Assembly: GCA_003661385.1 (NCBI GenBank)
Contig: QMWA01000019.1
Coordinates: forward strand, 1-16,371
Direction: 5' to 3'
Origin: Thermoproteota archaeon
GTDB lineage: Archaea > Korarchaeota > Korarchaeia > B14-G2
DNA length: 16,371 nucleotides
Shown here piece after piece: positions 1 through 14,988 of this stretch; within the stretch, counting starts at the first letter, position 1; each line of letters opens with the position of its first letter. Below the pieces are notes generated by a model. It ran no database searches and was not told the DNA's origin. It saw nothing but the letters and a program-made list of their open reading frames with translations. The translations under genes were made by a program, and so were the position numbers.

Positions 1-1227
1 AGGGCAGCTGCATCCCACACAGGTAGCATAGCTGGGATGGATGCAGCTTATGATGCAGCATTCAAGCAGACCAGAGTCCTGAGGTTCAGCAGGATCGACG
101 AGATGTTTGATGCAGCTAGAGCCTTCGCAACACAGCCTCTACCCGAAGACGGTGGAGCAGCTATAGTCACCAACGCGGGTGGAACAGGTGTCCTCTTAGC
201 TGACGCCTGCGAGCTCAACAGAGTCCCACTAGCGAGGTTCTCCACGTCGACGATAAAGGAGCTCGAGAAGATCCTGCCTCCACACGCCAGCTTCAGGAAC
301 CCACTTGATGTCATAGGTGACACAGATGCTGAAAGGTACACTACAGCCCTAAAGATAGTCCTCAGAGACCCCTCTGTGAACGCTGTGATAGCAAACATGC
401 TTCCAACAGCACTCCTAGACGTAGAGGAGGCTGCTGAAGCCTGCACTAGAGCCAAAGCCCTGCTCATCGAGGCAGAGAGCTGGAGGGTGGTTCCAGCTGA
501 GAACATCATCGCAGCAGCTGCAGGCAAGTGCGAGGTCTACGCTGAAGCCAGGGACCTGAGAGACGCTCTCTCACTGCTTTCAGCACTGGAGAAGGGGGTT
601 GACGCCGTAGTCTTGACCGCAAAGTCGGCTGAAGAGCTGAGGGAGACGCTTAGGCAGCTGAAGAGCTATGCTGAGGGCTTCCTCAAGCTTGAGGAAGCTG
701 AGGTAGTTCGCGTGCAGGAGGCAGGCCTAGGAGACAGAGCGTGTGTGGACACAGCTTTGCTGCTCTCCCAGGGAGAGGGCATGCTGGTTGGGAGCAAGGC
801 CTCGCTTCTCTTCCTGGTGCACAGCGAGACGCTGGAGAACCCGTTCATAGAGCCGAGGCCGTTCCGAGTTAATGCCGGGGCAGTCCACAGCTATATCCTC
901 TCCTCTCTACGAGGGACCAGCTACCTCTCTGAGCTCAGGAGCGGGAGCAGCGTGCTCGCAGTAAGCTGGAGAGGCAGAGCTAGGAGAGCTGTGGTCGGGA
1001 GAGTGAAAATAGAGAAGAGGCCTATGCTGCTTGTTGAAGCTGAGGCATCAGGTGAAGCTGGCACAGTACTCCTGCAGGACGCTGAGACAGTGTGCCTCGT
1101 GAGCCCTGGTGGAGAAGCTGTCTCGGTCAGAGAGCTAGAGGAGGGAAGCAAGGTGCTAGTCCACAAGCCTGGGGCTAAGGCTAGGCATGCTGGCATGGCA
1201 GTAGACGAGTTCGTCCTGGAGAAGTGA
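1..1227 (+). CDS. Chimeric frame: ADP-forming acyl-CoA synthetase alpha fragment joined to 3-dehydroquinate synthase (AroB' type), 5'-partial
   Basis: The frame is open from base 1, so the gene starts outside the window; the first ATG at 37 is internal. Bases 1 to about 450 match the C-terminal part of the acetyl/acyl-CoA synthetase (ADP-forming) alpha subunit: a SHTGS motif whose His (bases 16-18) corresponds to the phosphorylated histidine, then DAAYDAAFKQ, IVTNAGGTGV and a NPLDVIGD-like segment. Near base 455 it becomes archaeal DHQ synthase II, which oxidatively deaminates 2-amino-3,7-dideoxy-hept-6-ulosonate to 3-dehydroquinate with NAD+: ESWRVVPAENIIA, GEGMLVGS, FLVHSETLENPF, RPFRVNAGAVHSYIL, YLSELRSG, VGRVKIEKRP. 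Compared with the roughly 360-residue Methanocaldococcus protein, about the first 115 residues are absent, and the synthetase lacks its last ~80 residues. The DHQ synthase end overlaps aroD by 4 bases (GTGA), so that half is in its natural operon. A real fusion and an assembly chimera are both possible. Confidence 0.85.
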   Translation, partial: RAAASHTGSIAGMDAAYDAAFKQTRVLRFSRIDEMFDAARAFATQPLPEDGGAAIVTNAGGTGVLLADACELNRVPLARFSTSTIKELEKILPPHASFRNPLDVIGDTDAERYTTALKIVLRDPSVNAVIANMLPTALLDVEEAAEACTRAKALLIEAESWRVVPAENIIAAAAGKCEVYAEARDLRDALSLLSALEKGVDAVVLTAKSAEELRETLRQLKSYAEGFLKLEEAEVVRVQEAGLGDRACVDTALLLSQGEGMLVGSKASLLFLVHSETLENPFIEPRPFRVNAGAVHSYILSSLRGTSYLSELRSGSSVLAVSWRGRARRAVVGRVKIEKRPMLLVEAEASGEAGTVLLQDAETVCLVSPGGEAVSVRELEEGSKVLVHKPGAKARHAGMAVDEFVLEK

Positions 1228-1925: not shown

Positions 1926-2712
1926 CCCAGTCTCCCACTCTCTGTCACCTCTAATGCACAACCTGGCCTTCAGGAAGCTCAAGCTGCCGTACTCCTATAA
2001 GCTCATGGAGGTCAAAGCCAGCCAGCTACCTGAAGCAGTCAAGGCGCTTAGGAGCCCGAGTGTAGGAGGCTTTAACGTCACCATGCCTCTGAAGGAAGCC
2101 ATCTTAGAGCACTTAGATGAGGTCAGCAGGGAAGCTGAGGCTGTTGGAGCAGTGAATACCGTAGCCAACGTAGGCGGCAAGCTAGCTGGATACAACACTG
2201 ATGTAGCTGGCGTGAAAGCTGCGTTAGAGAAGGCTGGCGTGAAAGCTAGCAGAGCTGTAGTCCTCGGAGCTGGCGGGGCGGCTAAGGCAGCGGTCTACTG
2301 CCTAGCTGAGCTTAGAGCTGAAGTCATCGTCCTCAACAGGACGCTAGCTAGAGCTAGGAGGCTAGCTGAGAGACTGCCAGCTACCCCTGTCAAGCTCAGC
2401 AGGAGAGCGCTCAGAGAGCACATCCCTAGAGCTGACCTCGTGGTCAACGCTACACCAGTCGGCATGGATGGGAGGAGCACTCTAGTCGACAGGAGCCTCC
2501 TGAGAAGGCAGCAGGCTGTACTCGACCTGGTCTATAGGCCCTTGAAGACACCGCTGCTCAGGGAAGCTGAGGCAGCTGGAGCAAAGTGCATACCTGGGGT
2601 GGAGGTGCTTGTAGCTCAGGGAGCTGAAGCCTTCAGAATCTGGACTGGCTTCGAGCCTCCAGTAGACGAGATGATGAAGGCTGTGGTGGCTGAGCTTGAA
2701 GGCAGCAGCTAG
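1900..2712 (+). CDS. aroE: Shikimate dehydrogenase
   Basis: Reduces 3-dehydroshikimate to shikimate with NADPH. The protein has 270 residues, typical for the family. The shikimate site shows SHSLSP (S14, S16), the catalytic Lys in NVTMPLKE (K65) and the catalytic Asp in YNTD (D101). The nucleotide-binding domain follows with GAGGAA (about 123-128) and LNRT (about 145-148), the NRT motif usual for NADP(H) preference, then NATPVGM and the C-terminal GVEVLVAQGAEAF helix. The start is TTG at 1900, inside the end of aroD in another frame; GGAGG at 1886-1890 lies 9 bases before it, and the following residues (KAFYLIGSPVSHS) are the normal family start, so TTG is well supported. The end overlaps aroK by 17 bases. 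Confidence 0.96.
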   Translation: MKAFYLIGSPVSHSLSPLMHNLAFRKLKLPYSYKLMEVKASQLPEAVKALRSPSVGGFNVTMPLKEAILEHLDEVSREAEAVGAVNTVANVGGKLAGYNTDVAGVKAALEKAGVKASRAVVLGAGGAAKAAVYCLAELRAEVIVLNRTLARARRLAERLPATPVKLSRRALREHIPRADLVVNATPVGMDGRSTLVDRSLLRRQQAVLDLVYRPLKTPLLREAEAAGAKCIPGVEVLVAQGAEAFRIWTGFEPPVDEMMKAVVAELEGSS

Positions 2713-3556
2713 AGCCTACGGGGCAGTCACCGTAGTCAACGCAATACCAGCCTGGAAGGGGGCTGCGCTAGGAGTAGGCCTCAAGACTGAGGCTAAGGTG
2801 GAGCTGACAGATGGATGCTTCTCAGCTAAGCTGCTTAGCACGCCAGGTGAGAGCACGAGGCTCGCGATTGAGGCAGCTAAGCTCACGCTCAGGAAGCTAG
2901 GAGAGCATGAGGCTGGAGCTCGCATAGAGACCTGGTCTGAGATACCTCCTGCAAGAGGCCTCAAGAGCTCCAGTGCAGCTGCCAACGCTATAGTCATGGC
3001 GACTGCAGCTGCATTAGGCAGAGAGCTCAGGCCCTCTGAGGTATTAGAGCTGTCAGCTGAAGCCCAGCTCAGAGCAGGGGTCTCAGTGACTGGTGCCATA
3101 GACGACTCAGCTGCATCCCTCTTAGGCGGGCTTGTTGCAACAGACAACAAGGCCAGGGAGGTCGTCGGGCGCTGGGACATTGATGAGAGAAGCGTCGTGA
3201 TACTTGTACCGGAGAGGAAGCTGTATACTGTGAGCATAAGCGTGAAGAGGATGAAGGCTCTTAGCAAGGTGTTCGAGAAGGCCTATGAGCTCACTTTGAG
3301 TGGAGAGTGGCAGGAGGCAGCGCTGATAAACGGGTTAGCTGTCTCGTCTCTGCTGGGCATAGACTTCAAGCCTGCGCTTAAGGCGATGGAGCTTGGGGCG
3401 CTGGCAGCTGGAGTCTCAGGGACTGGCCCAAGCCTCTACGCGGTGTGCAGCAGCAGTGTAGCTGAGAGGGTTAAAGAGGAGTGGGCGGGCTCAGGCCACA
3501 GGGTTCTGTCGACTAGAGTAAACTCCAAGCTGAGGGGAGGAGCCTGGATGCTGTAG
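2696..3556 (+). CDS. aroK: Archaeal shikimate kinase (GHMP kinase family)
   Basis: Phosphorylates shikimate to shikimate 3-phosphate with ATP. It belongs to the GHMP (galacto/homoserine/mevalonate) kinase superfamily used by archaea and is unrelated to bacterial AroK/AroL. The 286-residue length fits. Seen in order: an N-terminal AYGAVTVVNAI stretch, the GHMP ATP loop PPARGLKSSSAAANA (about 84-98), an IDDSAASLLGG segment (about 139-149), and the third GHMP motif AAGVSGTGPS near residue 240. The start is TTG at 2696, within the last codons of aroE, with a GGTGG-like ribosome site 7 bases upstream. Its stop TAG shares its last G with the aroA GTG start (TAGTG). The operon position between aroE and aroA matches the order of reactions. 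Confidence 0.95.
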   Translation: MKAAARAYGAVTVVNAIPAWKGAALGVGLKTEAKVELTDGCFSAKLLSTPGESTRLAIEAAKLTLRKLGEHEAGARIETWSEIPPARGLKSSSAAANAIVMATAAALGRELRPSEVLELSAEAQLRAGVSVTGAIDDSAASLLGGLVATDNKAREVVGRWDIDERSVVILVPERKLYTVSISVKRMKALSKVFEKAYELTLSGEWQEAALINGLAVSSLLGIDFKPALKAMELGALAAGVSGTGPSLYAVCSSSVAERVKEEWAGSGHRVLSTRVNSKLRGGAWML

Positions 3557-4815
3557 TGCATAGAAGCAAGCTATCTGGGTCAGTCAAGGCCCCACCTAGC
3601 AAGAGCTACACGCATAGAGCTCTGGTCTTGGCCTCGATGGCAGCAGGCGAGTCTGAGGTGATGAACCCGCTGTACTGCAGGGACACAGAGGCCACTCTGC
3701 AGTGCTGTATGAAGCTTGGAGCCAGAGTGACGGCAGCGGAAGACATTACCGTGCTCGGTGGGAGGCTTAGAGCTCCATGCAGCATGCTAGATGCCAAGAG
3801 CTCTGGGACTACTGCTAGGCTCATCACTGCAGTAGCCTCCCATGCTGCTGGCGGCTTCACTCTGGTGACTGGCTCTAGAAGCCTGAGAAAGAGGCCCATG
3901 GGGCCCTTGCTCCTCGCGATACGCGACCTTGGTGGGAGAGCATGGTCTATTGGAGAAGAAGGGAAGCTGCCAGTCGTGGTGGAAGGCTGTGGGCTAGCTG
4001 GAGGAGAAGCTGAGGTTGACAGCAGGCTTTCATCCCAGTTCCTGTCTGCGCTCCTGGCCACATCGCTCTGGGCTAGGAGGGAGGTGAGGCTTAAGCCTGT
4101 AGGGCTGGTCTCAAAGCCATATGTCGAGATGACGGTGCACGTGGTAAGGTGGTTTGGTGGGTGTATAGAGGAGAGGAGTTGGGGCTATGTTGTGCCACCT
4201 GAGCAGCTGCTGAAGCCAGCTGGCTTCAGGGTTCCAGGGGACTTCTCGCTGGCAGCTCTGCTAGCTGCTGCAGCAGCGCTCACGGAGTCGAGAGTTGAGG
4301 TGAAGGGGCTTAGCTTAGCCCACCCTCAAGGCGACTCAGCTTTCATACAGTGCTTCAGGGAGCTTGGAGTGGACATAGAGTGCAGAGAGGAGAGCATCGT
4401 GGTGCAGGGCTTCAGCCCTAGAGCTGCTAGGCTGAACTTGAGAGACACACCAGACCTCCTGCCTGCTTTAGCTGTGCTTGCAGCCAAGGCACCTGGCAGG
4501 ACAGTCCTAGAGGGCGTTAAGCACACTAGGGTGAAGGAGTCTGATAGGGTTGTAGCGCTGGCGTCAGAGCTCTCCAAGCTCGGTGCTGAAGCACATGCTG
4601 AGGAGGATAGGCTTGTGATAGAGGGGGGAGAGCTGAGAGGAGGGAGCACACTGAGCTCCTGGGGAGATCACAGGATAGCGATGGCGCTAGTGGCTTTAGC
4701 TCTCAGCTTAGATGAGCCCACCCTGATCAGGGGAGTCGAGTGCATAGCAGACTCCTATCCCAGCTTCCTGAAGGATGTCATGAGGCTTGGAGGGAGAATT
4801 GAGGTGGTGAGGTGA
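3556..4815 (+). CDS. aroA: 3-phosphoshikimate 1-carboxyvinyltransferase (EPSP synthase)
   Basis: Transfers the enolpyruvyl group of PEP to shikimate 3-phosphate. The protein has 419 residues, in the usual range. Diagnostic motifs in order: PPSKSYTHRAL (about residues 13-23, with the catalytic Lys), SGTTARL, TGSRSLRKRPMGPL, DSRLSSQFLSALL, VPGDFSLAALLAAAA, VKESDRV, and near the C terminus DHRIAMAL. The start is GTG at 3556, sharing one base with the aroK stop. The AGGGGAGG upstream (3533-3540) is about 15 bases away, further than ideal, so re-initiation from aroK translation is likely. The gene overlaps aroC by 4 bases (GTGA). No key residue looks missing. Confidence 0.97.
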   Translation: MHRSKLSGSVKAPPSKSYTHRALVLASMAAGESEVMNPLYCRDTEATLQCCMKLGARVTAAEDITVLGGRLRAPCSMLDAKSSGTTARLITAVASHAAGGFTLVTGSRSLRKRPMGPLLLAIRDLGGRAWSIGEEGKLPVVVEGCGLAGGEAEVDSRLSSQFLSALLATSLWARREVRLKPVGLVSKPYVEMTVHVVRWFGGCIEERSWGYVVPPEQLLKPAGFRVPGDFSLAALLAAAAALTESRVEVKGLSLAHPQGDSAFIQCFRELGVDIECREESIVVQGFSPRAARLNLRDTPDLLPALAVLAAKAPGRTVLEGVKHTRVKESDRVVALASELSKLGAEAHAEEDRLVIEGGELRGGSTLSSWGDHRIAMALVALALSLDEPTLIRGVECIADSYPSFLKDVMRLGGRIEVVR

Positions 4816-5939
4816 CTGGCAGCATCCTAGGAGAGAGGTTTGTTGTAGTGAGCTTCGGTGAAAGCCACGGGCCAGCCATAGGAGCTGTTGTAGACGGGTG
4901 CCCAGCTGGGCTCCCACTAGCTAGAGAGGACATCCAGAGGGAAGTTGACTTGAGGAAGCCAGCTGACCCCACTGCTTCAACTGCTAGAGCTGAAAGAGAC
5001 GAGGTGAAGCTGCTCTCAGGAGTCTACAGGGGGTATACGACTGGAGCTCCGATAGCCATGCTGGTCGAGAACAGGGATGTGGACTCAAGCTGGTACCTGG
5101 CTAACGCCATGAAGCCTAGACCTGGGCACGCAGACTACCCAGCTTGGGTCAAGTACAGGGGCTTCAACGACCCAAGAGGTGGAGGGAGGTTCTCTGGGCG
5201 GATCACAGTAGGGTTCGTTATGGCTGGAGCTGTAGCGAAGAAGCTGCTTAGCTACACGCTTGGAGCAGAGATCCTGGCCTACACAGCCCAGGTTGGCCGG
5301 GTTAAAGCTGAGCCTCCAGCTGTAGGCCTCAGAGAGCTGAGGAGGATAGTGTACTCCAATAGCATGAGAGCACCAGACTCCAGGGCAGCTAGGGAGATGA
5401 GGAGGCTTGTAGCTGAAGCCAGAGCTGGAGGCGATAGCATAGGCAGCGTTGTGGAGTGTGTCGTGGAGGGGCTTCCCCCTGGGCTGGGAGAGCCTGTCTT
5501 CAGCTCACTTGAATCAGACTTGAGCAAAGCCCTGTTCTCGATACCAGGCGTGAAGGGCGTTGAGTTTGGGGCTGGCTTCAAGCTAGCTGAGATGCATGGC
5601 TCTGAGAGCAATGACCAGTACACCATACGAGGTGGAAGAGTTGTGACGGTGACAAACAACTGTGGAGGAGTGCTTGGTGGCCTCAGCACTGGGGGCTTAG
5701 TGGTTTTCAGAGCTGTGCTCAAGCCCCCGTCCTCGATAGCTAAGCCCCAGATGACAGTGGACTTGAAGTCCATGAGCACAGCTGAGATCAAGGTAGCTGG
5801 AAGGCACGACGCTTGCCTAGCGCCAAGAGCTGCCCCAGTAGTCGAGGCTGTTACAGCTATAGTCCTAGCAGACCACGCCATCAGAGCAGGCCTAATCCCT
5901 CCGGTTTTAGGTGAAGCCTATGCTAGAGCTCAGAAGTAG
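4812..5939 (+). CDS. aroC: Chorismate synthase
   Basis: Converts EPSP to chorismate by loss of phosphate; the family needs reduced FMN. The protein has 375 residues. It shows the conserved N-terminal [11 protein letters not shown], the RPGHADYP motif followed by [11 protein letters not shown], the [10 protein letters not shown] region, [25 protein letters not shown], and the C-terminal [16 protein letters not shown] block. All are chorismate synthase signatures with no obvious gaps. It starts at GTG 4812, overlapping the aroA stop as GTGA, with AGGTGG just upstream. Its last 20-29 bases overlap the chorismate mutase-aminotransferase gene. Chorismate made here is therefore passed to an enzyme encoded in the next overlapping frame. 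Confidence 0.97.
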
Positions 5940-7308
5940 GATAGAGGAGGTCACCACCAGGATACTGAAGCTGGCTGCAGCTAGAGTTAAGCTGGCTTCA
6001 GAGCTTGGAAGAGTTAAGCGTGAGCTCGGCCTCAGCGTATATGACCCTAGGAGAGAGCTTGAGCTAGCTAAGGCAGCAGTGAAGGTAGCTGATGAAGCGA
6101 GGGTTCCAAGGGAGTTTGCACTCGAAGTCCTCGCGGTCTTGCTGTCACAGGGGAGGAGAGCACAAGGCTTCACGCTGGAGGAGGCTGAAAGCCCGTTCTA
6201 CAGCCTGGTTAGGCAAGCAAGCACGGTAAACAATGCCATAAGGCTTGACATAGGTGAAACATGCTTTACCCCTCCTAGAGAAGCTCTGGAGGCGGCAGTC
6301 AAGTCCATTGAGAGGGGGGAGTTCAGGTACACGCCTGCAGCTGGGCTCCCTGATGTCAGAGCTAGGGTAGCTGAGCTCCTAAGTGAGAGGCTTGGAGTAG
6401 ACCTCAAGGCTGAGAACGTAGCCCTGACACCTGGAGCTAAGATGGGAGTCTATGCCAGCATGGCTGCGCTAGCTGGCCTCGGCTCCAGGGTCTTGGTCTT
6501 TAAGCCAAGCTGGCCTGCCTTCACCGAGATAGCAGCTAGGCTAAAGGCTATCACTATTGAAGTTGAGAGGAGGATTGAGGAAGACTGGAGCATCACAGAG
6601 GTCCCTGAAGCAGACTTCACTATAGTCTGCAGCCCAGACAACCCAACTGGCAGGGCGCTAAGCAGAGATGAGCTCGAGCACATAGCTGAGAAGGCTGAGG
6701 AGCATAACGCGGTGCTGCTCTCCGACGAGACCTACGGGTGGCTCAGCTTCAGGGAGCATAGCTCAGTGCTGCAAGCTGGCTGCAGCAAGGCAGTCTATGT
6801 GACCTCGCTATCCAAGGCATTTGGGATGACAGGCTTCAGAGCTGGAGTAGTAGTCAGCAGCCCAAGCATGGTGGAGAAGATAGCTAAGGTGCAGTCTCTA
6901 GCAGTAACTTGCGTGCCGCCATTTATCCAGAGAGCAGCTGCAGCAGCCTTGGAGACTAAGGCAGACGAGCAAAACAAGAGGAAGCTCAGGAGGCTCCTGG
7001 AGGTAGCTGAAGCAGAGCTGGCTTCAGCTCCACTCAGGTACTATAGGCCAGACGGCGGGCTATACCTGTTCCCAGAGGTTATGGTGGAGGAGTTCGCCGG
7101 CACAGAGTTCTCAAGGAGGCTGCTACACGAGGGCAAAGTTGCAGTAGCACCGGGATCAGGTTTTGGAGCAGAGTACAGCAGGTACCTGAGGATAACCTAC
7201 TCCGTTGGAGAGGAGACGCTTAAGGCTGGCTTAGCTAAGCTGAGGGATGCACTTGATCAGTATAGTTGGAGCAGGAGCAATGGGAAGCAGGCTAGCAAGG
7301 TACTTTAA
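5911..7308 (+). CDS. Bifunctional chorismate mutase (AroQ)-class I/II aminotransferase fusion
   Basis: Residues 1-85 form an AroQ-type chorismate mutase (chorismate to prephenate). Counterparts of the E. coli active-site residues are visible at R8, R25, K36, D45, R48, E49 and Q85. Residues from about 90 form a PLP aminotransferase of fold type I: ALTPGAK, SPDNPTG (241-247), SDETYGWLSF (271-280), the PLP Lys in SLSKAFGMTGFRAG (K302), and YLRITYS with the substrate-carboxylate Arg. The likely role is transamination of prephenate, phenylpyruvate or 4-hydroxyphenylpyruvate; the sequence does not decide which. The widest start is GTG 5911, but ATG 5920 has AGGTGA five bases upstream and begins like other mutases ([10 protein letters not shown]), so 5920 is probably the true start. 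The last ~20 residues are overprinted by tyrA and look like a non-conserved tail. Confidence 0.93.
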   Translation: MKPMLELRSRIEEVTTRILKLAAARVKLASELGRVKRELGLSVYDPRRELELAKAAVKVADEARVPREFALEVLAVLLSQGRRAQGFTLEEAESPFYSLVRQASTVNNAIRLDIGETCFTPPREALEAAVKSIERGEFRYTPAAGLPDVRARVAELLSERLGVDLKAENVALTPGAKMGVYASMAALAGLGSRVLVFKPSWPAFTEIAARLKAITIEVERRIEEDWSITEVPEADFTIVCSPDNPTGRALSRDELEHIAEKAEEHNAVLLSDETYGWLSFREHSSVLQAGCSKAVYVTSLSKAFGMTGFRAGVVVSSPSMVEKIAKVQSLAVTCVPPFIQRAAAAALETKADEQNKRKLRRLLEVAEAELASAPLRYYRPDGGLYLFPEVMVEEFAGTEFSRRLLHEGKVAVAPGSGFGAEYSRYLRITYSVGEETLKAGLAKLRDALDQYSWSRSNGKQASKVL

Positions 7309-8110
7309 GGAGAGGGGCTTTAAGCTGATCGTATACGACGTAGACGCAGAAAAGGCTAGAGCTCTAGCCAGCGAGCTCAAGGCGGAGGCCGTGAGAAGCC
7401 TCAGGAGGGCAGCTGAAGCCGACATAGTCCTGGTCTCGGTGCCTATGAGAGCTGCACCAGAAGTCACTGCTAAGGCAATCAAGCTATCCAGAAGAGGCGC
7501 TGTAGTAGCTGAGATAACGTCCTTAAAGTCCAATGTCCTCAGCAAGGCTAGGGTAGAGCTTGAGATGAGGCCTGATGTGAGGCTTCTCTCCTTACATCCG
7601 CTCTTCGGCCCTGGAGTCAGCACCCTTAAGGGGGAGAAGGTGGCTGTAGTCCCAGTGGTGAGCTTAGAGGAGGAGCTTAAGCTAGCTAGAGAGCTTCTAC
7701 CAGACTGCAAGCTCATGGTAGTAGATGCAGAGTCCCATGACAGAGCGGTAAGCTACACAATCTCGCTAGTCTACTTGCTCAACCTCATGCTAGCTAAGCT
7801 TCTTCCAAGCAGCTTGGAGCTGCTAGAGGAGCTCTCTGGAACATCCTATAGGGTTCAGGCCACGCTAGCTAAGGCTCTGCTGTCTCAGAGCCAATCACTA
7901 TACGCAGACCTGCTATGTGAAAGCAGGTACATGCCTGAGATCATAGACAACATGGTGGAGGAGCTGCTTAAGCTCAAGGACAAGCTGGGGAATACAAGGG
8001 ACGTTGAAGATGAAGTCATCAAAGCTAGAGAGAAAGCCTGGGAAGAGAAGCAGCTAAATGAAGCGTATAAAGTGATGTATAGAATGCTATTGTCTATAAA
8101 CGGAAAATAG
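7247..8110 (+). CDS. tyrA: Prephenate (or arogenate) dehydrogenase
   Basis: Oxidatively decarboxylates prephenate to 4-hydroxyphenylpyruvate (or arogenate to tyrosine). The protein has 287 residues: an N-terminal Rossmann fold with GAGAMGS and an acidic residue at the end of the second strand (VYDVD), suggesting NAD+ preference, then SVPMRAAPEV, ITSLKS, the catalytic-His motif LHPLFGP, SHDRAVSYT and GTSYRVQATLAK carrying a candidate substrate Arg. By alignment from memory, the Gln and His often found after the HD pair appear replaced (ISLVYLL), which may reflect archaeal divergence. The start is ATG 7247 or TTG 7253; GAGG at 7242-7245 is correctly spaced only for the TTG, and the Rossmann strand would then begin directly. 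It overlaps the fusion gene by 56-62 bases. It is the last gene of the aro operon. Confidence 0.92.
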   Translation: MHLISIVGAGAMGSRLARYFKERGFKLIVYDVDAEKARALASELKAEAVRSLRRAAEADIVLVSVPMRAAPEVTAKAIKLSRRGAVVAEITSLKSNVLSKARVELEMRPDVRLLSLHPLFGPGVSTLKGEKVAVVPVVSLEEELKLARELLPDCKLMVVDAESHDRAVSYTISLVYLLNLMLAKLLPSSLELLEELSGTSYRVQATLAKALLSQSQSLYADLLCESRYMPEIIDNMVEELLKLKDKLGNTRDVEDEVIKAREKAWEEKQLNEAYKVMYRMLLSINGK

Positions 8111-11569: not shown

Positions 11570-11845
11570 CTAGCCTCCGGCTACGGGAGGGAATATAGCT
11601 AGGACGTCGCCCTCCTTAATGGGTGAATCAAGCCCCTTGATGTGGTCTATGTCTCTGCCGTTCAGGAACACCTTATAGAACTTCTTCAGCTTGCCGTTGC
11701 TGTCAAGCATGCTTGAGAGCTGAGGGTACATGTCGACTAGCGTGTAGATGACATCAGCCACCTTAGAGCCTGTGAGCTCTAGGTCAAGCTGGCTTACCCC
11801 AGTAGACTCCCTTAGTGTGGCGAAGAGCTTAACCTTAACCCTCAT
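11570..11845 (-). CDS. moaD: MoaD/ThiS-family sulfur carrier (molybdopterin/tungstopterin synthase small subunit-like)
   Basis: A 91-residue beta-grasp protein: VKVKLFATLRESTG at the N terminus, a middle YPQLSSMLD, KVFLNGRDI, then EGDVLAIFPPVAGG ending exactly in the Gly-Gly that is adenylated and thiocarboxylated. It would donate sulfur for the dithiolene of the pterin cofactor. Its place directly after an aldehyde ferredoxin oxidoreductase and its radical SAM partner suggests service to tungstopterin, although a general MoaD role is possible. The ATG at 11845 is preceded by AGGGGGC only a few bases away, and by a TATA-like TTTTATC about 30 bases upstream. It is the last gene of the minus-strand cluster. 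Confidence 0.9.
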   Translation of the reverse strand: MRVKVKLFATLRESTGVSQLDLELTGSKVADVIYTLVDMYPQLSSMLDSNGKLKKFYKVFLNGRDIDHIKGLDSPIKEGDVLAIFPPVAGG

Positions 11846-11873
11846 AAGCCCCCTAGTATCCGTGAGCTAGTGT

Positions 11874-11881
11874 GATAAAAG
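11874..11881 (-). promoter_or_regulatory. Possible TATA box before moaD
   Basis: On the minus strand GCTTTTATCACA covers about 11871-11882, centred some 30 bases before the moaD ATG (11845). In the 45-base gap between the radical SAM gene and moaD this is the only AT-rich patch. It would give a leader of only a few bases, just including the GGGGG ribosome site. It may be an internal promoter in the cluster. Confidence 0.35.
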
Positions 11882-11890
11882 CGTTGCCAC

Positions 11891-13021
11891 CTACGGGTAT
11901 TCTCTGATGAGCCTTACGTGCTCTACGAGGTACCTCATTGGGCACTGTACTATCCTCCTGTAGTACAGGCAGGAGGCGCAGCTCGGTGAGTTCCCCCAGC
12001 AGTCGTGCTCTGTTGTCTCGAAGAATGCACAGTACTCCTCGTGCTGGCAGTCGTTGCATGATGGGAACTGCCCCAGCTTGACTAGAACCCTGAACTTCAC
12101 GTAGCTCTCGGTGCTCCATATATCCTTCAGGGGCTTCTCAGCTATAGACCCGAAAGCCGCCCTCTTGACTGTCCTGCGGCGGCCGTCTAGCCACATGCCA
12201 TACGTGTGGGAGAGCATTAGACAGGGAGAGACTGAAGTGTCCCAGTTCACTACTAGCGCGTTGTTCTCTATGAAGGGGCAGTATCTGCCTGTTCCAGTCC
12301 TGTACTTGAACTCAGGCTCAACTATCCTCAGGTTGTGGACTATAGCCTTCCTCCTGGCCTCATGCAGCACCTCATGCACCTTGCTGTCTGGGTCTGATCC
12401 GTAGAGGACCTGTGAAGCCATGGCTTCGCTCGTAGGTATGAGATTTGAGAGGATTACTCCTATAGCTCCGCTCTTAGAGGCCTCTTCTATGCTGCTTGGG
12501 AGCTCACTTAGGTTAGACTTCATGAGGATCATTGAAATCCATATAGCTGGGGTCCTTCCAGCGCTGCTAGCTGCCTCCATGATGCTTCTCATCCCCTCTC
12601 TCACCTTAGCTAGGCTTGCGCCCTCTCTCAGCTCCTGGTATAGGCTTGTGAAGCTCTCTATGCTGACTACAACCCACCTGATTTTCTCGGCTATGAGCTT
12701 CGAGTACTCCTCCAACATGGTGCCGTTTGTGACGAGGCCTAGCTTGAACCACCTGGAGGCCTGGTCTACAGCCTCCTGGAAGTGCGTGTAGTACGTGGGC
12801 TCACCGTAGCCGCTCAGCCACAGGACCTTCACTCCAGCCTCGTGGAGCTCTCTTAGAGCTGCCTTGAGGTGCTGTAGCTCCATTTCCCCAAGCTCCTCGC
12901 TCCAAGACCTCCTGTAGCAGAACCTGCAGCTGAGGTTGCACTTTGATGTAAGCTCTAGGTGAGCTTCAGCCGGCGGCCCTAAGTCAGGCTGGTACCATCC
13001 TCCTAGCAGCCTTATCTTCAT
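11891..13021 (-). CDS. Radical SAM protein, tungsten cofactor oxidoreductase maturase type
   Basis: A 376-residue radical SAM enzyme. The CxxxCxxC cluster motif is CNLSCRFC (C28, C32, C35), followed by a GGEP-like GYGEP (71-75) and GLVTNG. A Cys-rich C-terminal SPASM/twitch-like region has Cys at 248, 267, 322, 325, 331, 341, 348, 351 and 360, enough for one or two auxiliary iron-sulfur clusters. Its position immediately downstream of a tungsten aldehyde oxidoreductase is the classic place of the cmo (cofactor-modifying) gene of Pyrococcus and of the radical SAM maturase family of tungsten-cofactor oxidoreductases. The exact reaction is not established. The start ATG at 13021 has no Shine-Dalgarno but has a T-rich TATA-like block 29 bases upstream, which fits a leaderless transcript. 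A peptide-modifying SPASM enzyme is the main alternative. Confidence 0.85.
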   Translation of the reverse strand: MKIRLLGGWYQPDLGPPAEAHLELTSKCNLSCRFCYRRSWSEELGEMELQHLKAALRELHEAGVKVLWLSGYGEPTYYTHFQEAVDQASRWFKLGLVTNGTMLEEYSKLIAEKIRWVVVSIESFTSLYQELREGASLAKVREGMRSIMEAASSAGRTPAIWISMILMKSNLSELPSSIEEASKSGAIGVILSNLIPTSEAMASQVLYGSDPDSKVHEVLHEARRKAIVHNLRIVEPEFKYRTGTGRYCPFIENNALVVNWDTSVSPCLMLSHTYGMWLDGRRRTVKRAAFGSIAEKPLKDIWSTESYVKFRVLVKLGQFPSCNDCQHEEYCAFFETTEHDCWGNSPSCASCLYYRRIVQCPMRYLVEHVRLIREYP

Positions 13022-13046
13022 GGAAAGCTGGGAGCTAGGCGGGGGG

Positions 13047-13054
13047 TAAAAAAT
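13047..13054 (-). promoter_or_regulatory. T-rich block between AOR and radical SAM gene (terminator and/or promoter)
   Basis: The minus strand reads ATTTTTTA here, in the 46-base gap between the AOR stop and the radical SAM ATG. A T-run just after a stop codon is a typical archaeal terminator signal, and its centre is about 29 bases before the next ATG, also right for a TATA box of a leaderless transcript. Either or both roles are possible. Confidence 0.4.
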
Positions 13055-13067
13055 GTTGGGGGCGAGT

Positions 13068-14948
13068 TTAGGCTGGAAGGAGGCCCTGCTCCTCTAGCCT
13101 GTCTGCTAGCTCCTTTAGGCCCAGCCTCTCTAGAGTCTCCCTGGTCGGCCTGCCGTCTACCCAGCCTCTGAGCTTATAGTACTCTGGGAGCATCTCATCT
13201 AGCCTAGCTGTGTGGCCTGCTATTGGGCCAGCTGGCATAGCTGTCTTTGTGAACCTCTCTGGCAGCTTGTCGTACTCCTTTCCATCTCCGAAGCTGAGTA
13301 TATTGAACACTCTCTCAGCGTTCCATATCCTCTCTCCTATGGCCATGAACTCCTCTGGTGTTACGTCCCAGCCTGTTACGGCTGAAAGCTGCTTTGCTAG
13401 GTCATCTACCCAGTACGCGAAGGTCACGAACTTGCATACCACCATGCTGTCTAGGGTTGCGAAGCCGTCCTGGAACTCCTTCACCCACTTTGGCTTGCCT
13501 TCCGTCTTCAGTGGGTCTAGCTTCTCTGGGACACCTAGGATCTCAGGTGATATCATGTATGCTCTCAGGTGGCAGCCTCCTCTGTTGCTTGTTGCATATG
13601 CTAGGGCGTGGCCCTGTACTCCTCTTGGGTCGTATGCAGGTAGGCACTGGCCTCTTACCTGTGGAGCTATCTCTGGGCGCCCATACTTCTTCGCGAGCCT
13701 GTAGCCTCCTTCAGCTAGCTCATCGCCTATGCCTGACCTGTATGCTATCCTCCATACCATCTCAACTAGCGCGCCTTCATTCCCGAACTTGAGCTCTATC
13801 CCCTCAAGCTTCTCCTTGGGGATGTAGCCTTTCTCGTAGAGCTCCATTGCAACAGCTATGGCGTTGCCTGTGCTTATGGTGTCTAGCCCTAGCTCGTTGC
13901 AGAGGAAGTTCGCCTTGGTGACTGCAGCTAGGTCTCCTACACCAGTGTTTGCTCCAAGAGCCCATACTGTCTCGTACTCTGGGCCGTCTCCCTCACCCTG
14001 GTATGGCGGCTCAGTTATCCTGGTCCACCTGCCACAGGCTATGGCGCAGCCCCAGCATGGCTGCCTCCTCACAAGTATCTTCTCAGCTATGGTCTCTCCA
14101 CTTATGTTCGCAGCATGCTCGAACTGGCCTTTCTGGAAGTTGTTTGTCGGGAATATGCCGGCCTCGTTGATTATGTTGACCAGGACTGCAGTCCCGTACT
14201 TCGGGAGAGCCTCGTTTGTCACCCCACTCGCCTTCTTCTTCTCCAGTGCTTCTCTCACGACCTCCTTCAGCTTCTCTTCGTCAGCTGGCTTAGGCTTCAG
14301 CCCTGGCTTGGCTACTATGGCCTTGAGCTTCTTTGAGCCCCATACTGCACCATGTCCTCCTCTGCCTGCTGCTCTGCCCTCCTCGTTTATTATGCACGCT
14401 ATCTTGCAGAGGTTCTCTCCAGCTGGGCCTATGCATGCCACCGAGATGTCCTCACCATGCTCCTCCTGGAGCATCTTGGTTGTCAGGTGCGTGTCTCTCC
14501 CCCAGAGGTGCTTTGCATCTCTGAGCTCAGCCTTACCCTCCTCTAGGTAGAGGTAGACTGGAGTCTCTGATGCGCCCTCCAGTACCACGAAGTCGAAGCC
14601 AGCGAACTTCAGGTATGGGCCGAACTTTCCTCCACTTTGGGAGTCGTGTATTGTGTTTGTCTCAGGGGACTTCGTTACACTGCACCATCTCCCAGCTTCT
14701 AAGCCGGATGCGATGCCAGTTACTGGGCCTGTCATGACGAATGCCTTGTTCTTAGGGCTAAGCGGGTCTACCTTCGGGTCTACCTCCTTCAGCATGAGGT
14801 ATACTCCAAGCCCTCTGCCACCTATCCAGCTCCTGAGAACCTGCTCAGGGAGGTAATCGAACAGGTTTTCGACCTTAACCTTCTGGTTTGTGAGGTCTAC
14901 TCGGACGAACTTCCCCATGTAGCCGCCGACCAAGTAGGTCACCGCCAT
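13068..14948 (-). CDS. aor: Tungsten-containing aldehyde:ferredoxin oxidoreductase
   Basis: Oxidises aldehydes to carboxylic acids with ferredoxin as acceptor, using a bis-pterin tungsten centre and a [4Fe-4S] cluster; cytoplasmic. From the ATG at 14948 the protein has 626 residues (Pyrococcus AOR about 605). Visible: GKFVRVDLT start domain, WIGGRGLGVYL, TGPVTG, GGKFGPYLKFAG, AGRGGHGAVWGSKKLKA pterin-binding region, the cluster Cys in CWGCAIAC plus a fourth in DSMVVCKF, GPEYETVWALG, NELGLDTIS and the ATSNRGGCH His. Three in-frame ATGs exist (14963, 14948, 14918). A TTTTAAG TATA box centred near 14972 puts the transcript start at about 14948, so that ATG is favoured as a leaderless start. The radical SAM and MoaD-like genes follow. 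Family members (FOR, GOR) cannot be excluded as the specific substrate class. Confidence 0.94.
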   Translation of the reverse strand: MAVTYLVGGYMGKFVRVDLTNQKVKVENLFDYLPEQVLRSWIGGRGLGVYLMLKEVDPKVDPLSPKNKAFVMTGPVTGIASGLEAGRWCSVTKSPETNTIHDSQSGGKFGPYLKFAGFDFVVLEGASETPVYLYLEEGKAELRDAKHLWGRDTHLTTKMLQEEHGEDISVACIGPAGENLCKIACIINEEGRAAGRGGHGAVWGSKKLKAIVAKPGLKPKPADEEKLKEVVREALEKKKASGVTNEALPKYGTAVLVNIINEAGIFPTNNFQKGQFEHAANISGETIAEKILVRRQPCWGCAIACGRWTRITEPPYQGEGDGPEYETVWALGANTGVGDLAAVTKANFLCNELGLDTISTGNAIAVAMELYEKGYIPKEKLEGIELKFGNEGALVEMVWRIAYRSGIGDELAEGGYRLAKKYGRPEIAPQVRGQCLPAYDPRGVQGHALAYATSNRGGCHLRAYMISPEILGVPEKLDPLKTEGKPKWVKEFQDGFATLDSMVVCKFVTFAYWVDDLAKQLSAVTGWDVTPEEFMAIGERIWNAERVFNILSFGDGKEYDKLPERFTKTAMPAGPIAGHTARLDEMLPEYYKLRGWVDGRPTRETLERLGLKELADRLEEQGLLPA

Positions 14949-14953
14949 CAGGC

Positions 14954-14988
14954 GCAGGAGCATGCTGCTTAAAAGAGTTTGCTCCTGC
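14954..14988 (-). repeat. 8-base inverted repeat centred on the AOR TATA box
   Basis: GCAGGAGC (14954-14961) and GCTCCTGC (14981-14988) are perfect complements separated by 19 bases. The centre of symmetry (about 14971) falls inside the TATA-like TTTTAAG. A dimeric repressor bound here would cover the promoter; alternatively it is a chance pair of common words. Confidence 0.4.
14968..14975 (-). promoter_or_regulatory. TATA box of the aor transcript
   Basis: The minus strand reads CTTTTAAG. Its centre is about 24-26 bases before ATG 14948, the distance expected between TATA and transcription start in archaea, so it both predicts a promoter and supports that start codon. The gap to thiL (14964-15010) holds nothing else I can recognise. 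Confidence 0.55.

Follow-up and report, generated by a model that had tools for sequence, protein, structure and literature searches.

A chimeric assembly join almost certainly accounts for the open frame linking acyl-CoA synthetase to 3-dehydroquinate synthase II at the end of a draft archaeal contig

The stretch of DNA analysed here (the window, 16,371 bp) is the entire contig C19, one of the 206 contigs that make up a 1.74 Mb draft archaeal genome; base 1 of the window is the first base of the contig. At its 5′ end, a single stop-free frame on the forward strand (1-1227) runs from a piece of an ADP-forming acyl-CoA synthetase gene (acs) into a 3-dehydroquinate synthase II (DHQS II) gene that lacks its front. 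This acs-DHQS II fusion is almost certainly a chimera created during assembly. As a chimera would predict, each side of the join can be found complete, or can be followed further, at a different place in the genome: acs is present as an intact gene on contig C21, and asd together with the start of the ADH synthase gene, which precede DHQS II in relatives, are found on contig C147.

The first-pass annotation had described one uninterrupted frame across two half-genes, and the open reading frame reading of the window bears this out. Profile searches matched residues 1 to ~146 to acyl-CoA synthetase (PF13607, PF19045 and TIGR02717), with the phospho-His motif that had been noticed in this stretch (SHTG) at residues 5-8, and residues ~140-408 to DHQS II (PF01959 positions 76-344 of 344, 328 bits). 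Both matches are thus partial, as had been claimed for the two halves, but a 5′ truncation of the synthetase gene itself is not supported, since its front is missing because contig C19 begins at base 1. We put the shortfall in PF01959 coverage, which stops short of a full-length match, down to the broken contig. The DHQS II part (439-1227, forward strand, left boundary uncertain between 427 and 453) lacks its first ~90-113 residues by comparison within the phylum and ~90-130 depending on the relative; the figure of ~115 given earlier is near this range. Similarity to acs at the DNA level stops at base 437 and DHQS similarity begins at ~430-453. The join therefore lies at ~424-441, slightly to the left of the ~455 initially proposed. 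Two coding frames joined on the same strand are in frame by chance in one case out of three, and for this reason the open frame alone is not significant; the one-in-three coincidence was nevertheless counted against a chimera.

A search of the genome for a complete acyl-CoA synthetase, a check suggested at the outset, found one at C21:5322-7439 (705 aa), in a gene neighbourhood of its own. Its product covers TIGR02717 positions 1-446 and NF045493 positions 5-694, whereas the window piece reaches only TIGR02717 positions 247-398 and lacks the complete alpha and beta domains of members of these families (4-hydroxybutyrate--CoA ligase / acetate--CoA ligase type). Window positions 1-437 (forward strand) correspond to an internal piece of acs of ~146 codons, SHTG included, that extends only from the contig start to the join. 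They align without gaps to C21:6084-6520 with 392 of 437 bases identical (90%), the match stopping at 437. Synonymous substitutions account for 38 of the 43 changed codons (dS 0.49, dN 0.019, dN/dS 0.038), which argues that the piece is not a long-disabled fragment. This allele-like divergence suggests that bases 1-437 are a misplaced copy of the same gene from a related strain or species. By eye, within C21:5322-8530, acs is directly followed by a gene resembling a phosphotransacetylase-type regulatory (DRTGG/BioD-like) protein, and acyl-CoA dehydrogenase and ETF genes surround it.

The DHQS II part is the sole DHQS II match in the genome and shares 51-53% identity with the DHQS II proteins of two relatives from the same phylum, G027 and G026. 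As noted previously, it stands at the head of an intact aro run. The downstream genes, all on the forward strand, are aroD coding for a type I 3-dehydroquinase (1224-1925, PF01487, in the same position in G026 and G027), aroE coding for shikimate dehydrogenase (1900-2712, PF08501 and PF18317), a gene for a GHMP-type kinase presumed from its place in the operon to be the archaeal shikimate kinase (2696-3556, PF00288 and PF08544), aroA coding for EPSP synthase (3556-4815, PF00275), aroC coding for chorismate synthase (4812-5939, PF01264) and a prephenate dehydrogenase gene (7247-8110, PF02153). A further gene on the same strand at the end of the operon (5911-7308) codes for a two-domain protein that combines chorismate mutase (PF01817) with a class I/II aminotransferase (PF00155). 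No second copy of the aro region was found in the bin. The search of the genome for a complete DHQ synthase, likewise suggested at the outset, yielded no DHQS II match beyond the C19 part. When the N-terminal part of G027 DHQS II served as query, no DHQS II front was found elsewhere in the assembly, a weak negative given that this front is poorly conserved; the missing front was also counted against a chimera. Two Fe-ADH_2 matches, on C169 and C12, were considered as an alternative DHQ synthase; the C169 protein reads by eye as an iron-type alcohol dehydrogenase.

The genes asd, ADH synthase, DHQS II, aroD and aroE are contiguous and in this order in both G027 and G026. This arrangement agrees with a proposed M. 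jannaschii pathway in which aspartate semialdehyde and DKFP are the substrates of MJ0400 (ADH synthase), whose product MJ1249 (DHQS II) converts to dehydroquinate (PMC4162585). When the ADH synthase of G027 was used as query, it matched a single place in the draft genome, C147:4476-4616. Contig C147 (4617 bp) carries asd followed by codons 1-52 of the ADH synthase gene, within which it breaks off; over 47 residues the encoded protein is 64% identical to that of G027. Since asd and the start of the ADH synthase gene are broken off at the end of C147 and the order in relatives matches, C147 is probably the natural upstream neighbour of C19, and we regard this as the strongest evidence against the synthetase piece belonging upstream of DHQS II. 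Taking the G027 distances as a guide (where ADH synthase begins at L034:560 and the DHQS homology at ~L034:1620), we estimate that ~0.9 kb separating C147 from the DHQS part of C19 is unassembled. The place of DHQS II between ADH synthase and aroD is thus read on one side from C19, where aroD adjoins, and on the other from synteny, the ADH synthase gene starting at the end of C147. Compared with an MJ1249-type DHQS II (PF01959) in an asd-ADH synthase-DHQS II-aro operon, the draft genome retains the C-terminal two thirds of the protein, the downstream gene order, and asd with the ADH synthase start on C147, but the DHQS II front and most of ADH synthase are absent from this assembly. A PF01791 match on C165, considered as a candidate ADH synthase, reads by eye as deoC. 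Operon order varies within the phylum, since neither ADH synthase nor aroD adjoins DHQS II in G002 (L006), in contrast to G026, G027 and the window.

The end of the acs similarity and the start of the DHQS similarity both fall within GTAGAGGAGGCTGCTGAAGCC (421-441, forward strand), where GAGGAGGCTGCTGAA codes for E-E-A-A-E. This word suits both genes in one frame, because the protein context is V-E-E-T-A-E in the C21 synthetase and V-V-E-A-A-E at the homologous place in DHQS II of G026; a word shared at the join is what a chimera would be expected to leave. Parts of the join word recur elsewhere in the genome, with 17 of 17 bases on C97, 16 of 16 on C22 and on C144, and 19 of 20 on C16. Word counts, like the state of the assembly, were judged on 42 sampled contigs of the draft genome. 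In 0.62 Mb we counted 77 occurrences of GCTGAAGCC, whereas a second-order Markov model predicts 25; for recurrent 14- and 16-mers, positions 416-445 rank among the highest 0.9% of the sample. The simpler alternative raised by the first-pass annotation, a join made during assembly where a GCTGAAGCC-like word recurs, gains support both from this over-representation and from the upstream neighbour of the operon being found at the end of C147.

Among the 42 sampled contigs, five pairs share exactly 123 identical end bases. Such sharing is characteristic of de Bruijn assembly in which the largest k-mer is ~123-124, following the rule that links the length of shared contig ends to the assembler k-mer (PMC10914622). 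In the same sample, C1 (1-442) and C16 (442-1) show an inverted end-to-end overlap of 442 bases with 97% identity, indicating that strain variants reach contig ends in this assembly. Given this overlap and the five 123-base pairs, more joining of the draft genome is probably feasible with reads. Local assembly errors and chimeras have been described in metagenome data and are believed to feature prominently in the output of IDBA-UD (PMC7111523), and such errors in metagenome assemblies are also described elsewhere (PMC10914622). The present case resembles those chimeric joins and local errors in its short foreign stretch at a contig end, its shared ends of k-mer length, its strain variants and the location of the natural neighbour on another contig; the usual proof is read support, whereas here the join is judged from assembled sequence alone. 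A further observation counts against a chimera: the first 123 bases of C19 are common to no other contig in the bin, and the left end is therefore not explained by a visible k-mer branch.

The real gene order would be (lysC-like)-asd-ADH synthase-DHQS II-aroD-aroE and onwards, corresponding to the aspartate-semialdehyde/DKFP route to 3-dehydroquinate. The break would leave C147 stopping inside ADH synthase and native C19 starting inside DHQS II, with the ~0.9 kb between them unassembled. At this break, we infer, the assembler continued C19 to the left with reads that came from the acs allele of a co-occurring related strain and crossed over at GAGGAGGCTGCTGAA, where both genes fit the same frame, thereby producing a join that would have no read support.

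No open frame matching both halves was found in 28 other genomes of the phylum or in 40 related genomes, so that the same join, which a genuine fusion would be expected to show in at least one independent genome, did not turn up in the relatives as the first-pass annotation had proposed to check. A synthetase match in G033 extending to residue 236 was considered as a second fusion and taken as an ordinary synthetase, the DHQS part alone finding nothing there. Scans of wider genome-contig and viral-contig collections for relatives returned nothing useful.

It is very improbable that one strain underwent a real deletion or rearrangement in which recombination at the common word joined acs to DHQS II. 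That strain would have lost ADH synthase and the DHQS II front at this locus, and its entry into the pathway would be disabled. The recurrence of the join word and its compatibility with both genes are in keeping with such an event, as is the strain variation in the bin, and C147 could in principle derive from a different strain than C19. However, the assembly is fragmented and the join is less than 450 bases from a contig start, and acs on C21 is nowhere near an aro operon, so that a simple deletion needs a different gene order. Moreover, the other genes of the operon are all intact and present just once in the bin; intact and fusion strains would therefore have to share one assembled operon. 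A strain-specific functional domain replacement, with the acs segment serving as a new N-terminal part of a working DHQS II, is more improbable still: it would suit the poor conservation of that part among relatives and the strong purifying selection on the synthetase piece, but this selection pattern is already accounted for if the piece is an acs allele, the fusion occurs in no relative, and the start of the gene for the partner enzyme, ADH synthase, follows asd on C147 as in the usual gene order. Neither the disabled pathway entry step nor the unprecedented domain replacement that had been envisaged for a real junction is supported, as the fusion is found in no other genome of the phylum and a complete synthetase exists elsewhere in this genome.

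If the frame is an assembly chimera, as we favour, it brings no new biology. The case illustrates that an in-frame "fusion" at the end of a draft contig can be largely settled without reads through an intact donor gene and a broken-off neighbour on other contigs. It also carries a warning, in that automatic annotation will list a fusion protein at this place that is false, and may treat the lineage as lacking the DHQS step.

Farther along the window, on the reverse strand (11570-14963), the translations group a MoaD/ThiS-like small protein, a radical SAM protein and a large aldehyde ferredoxin oxidoreductase-like protein, a grouping expected where a tungsten enzyme is encoded together with the genes for its cofactor and maturation.
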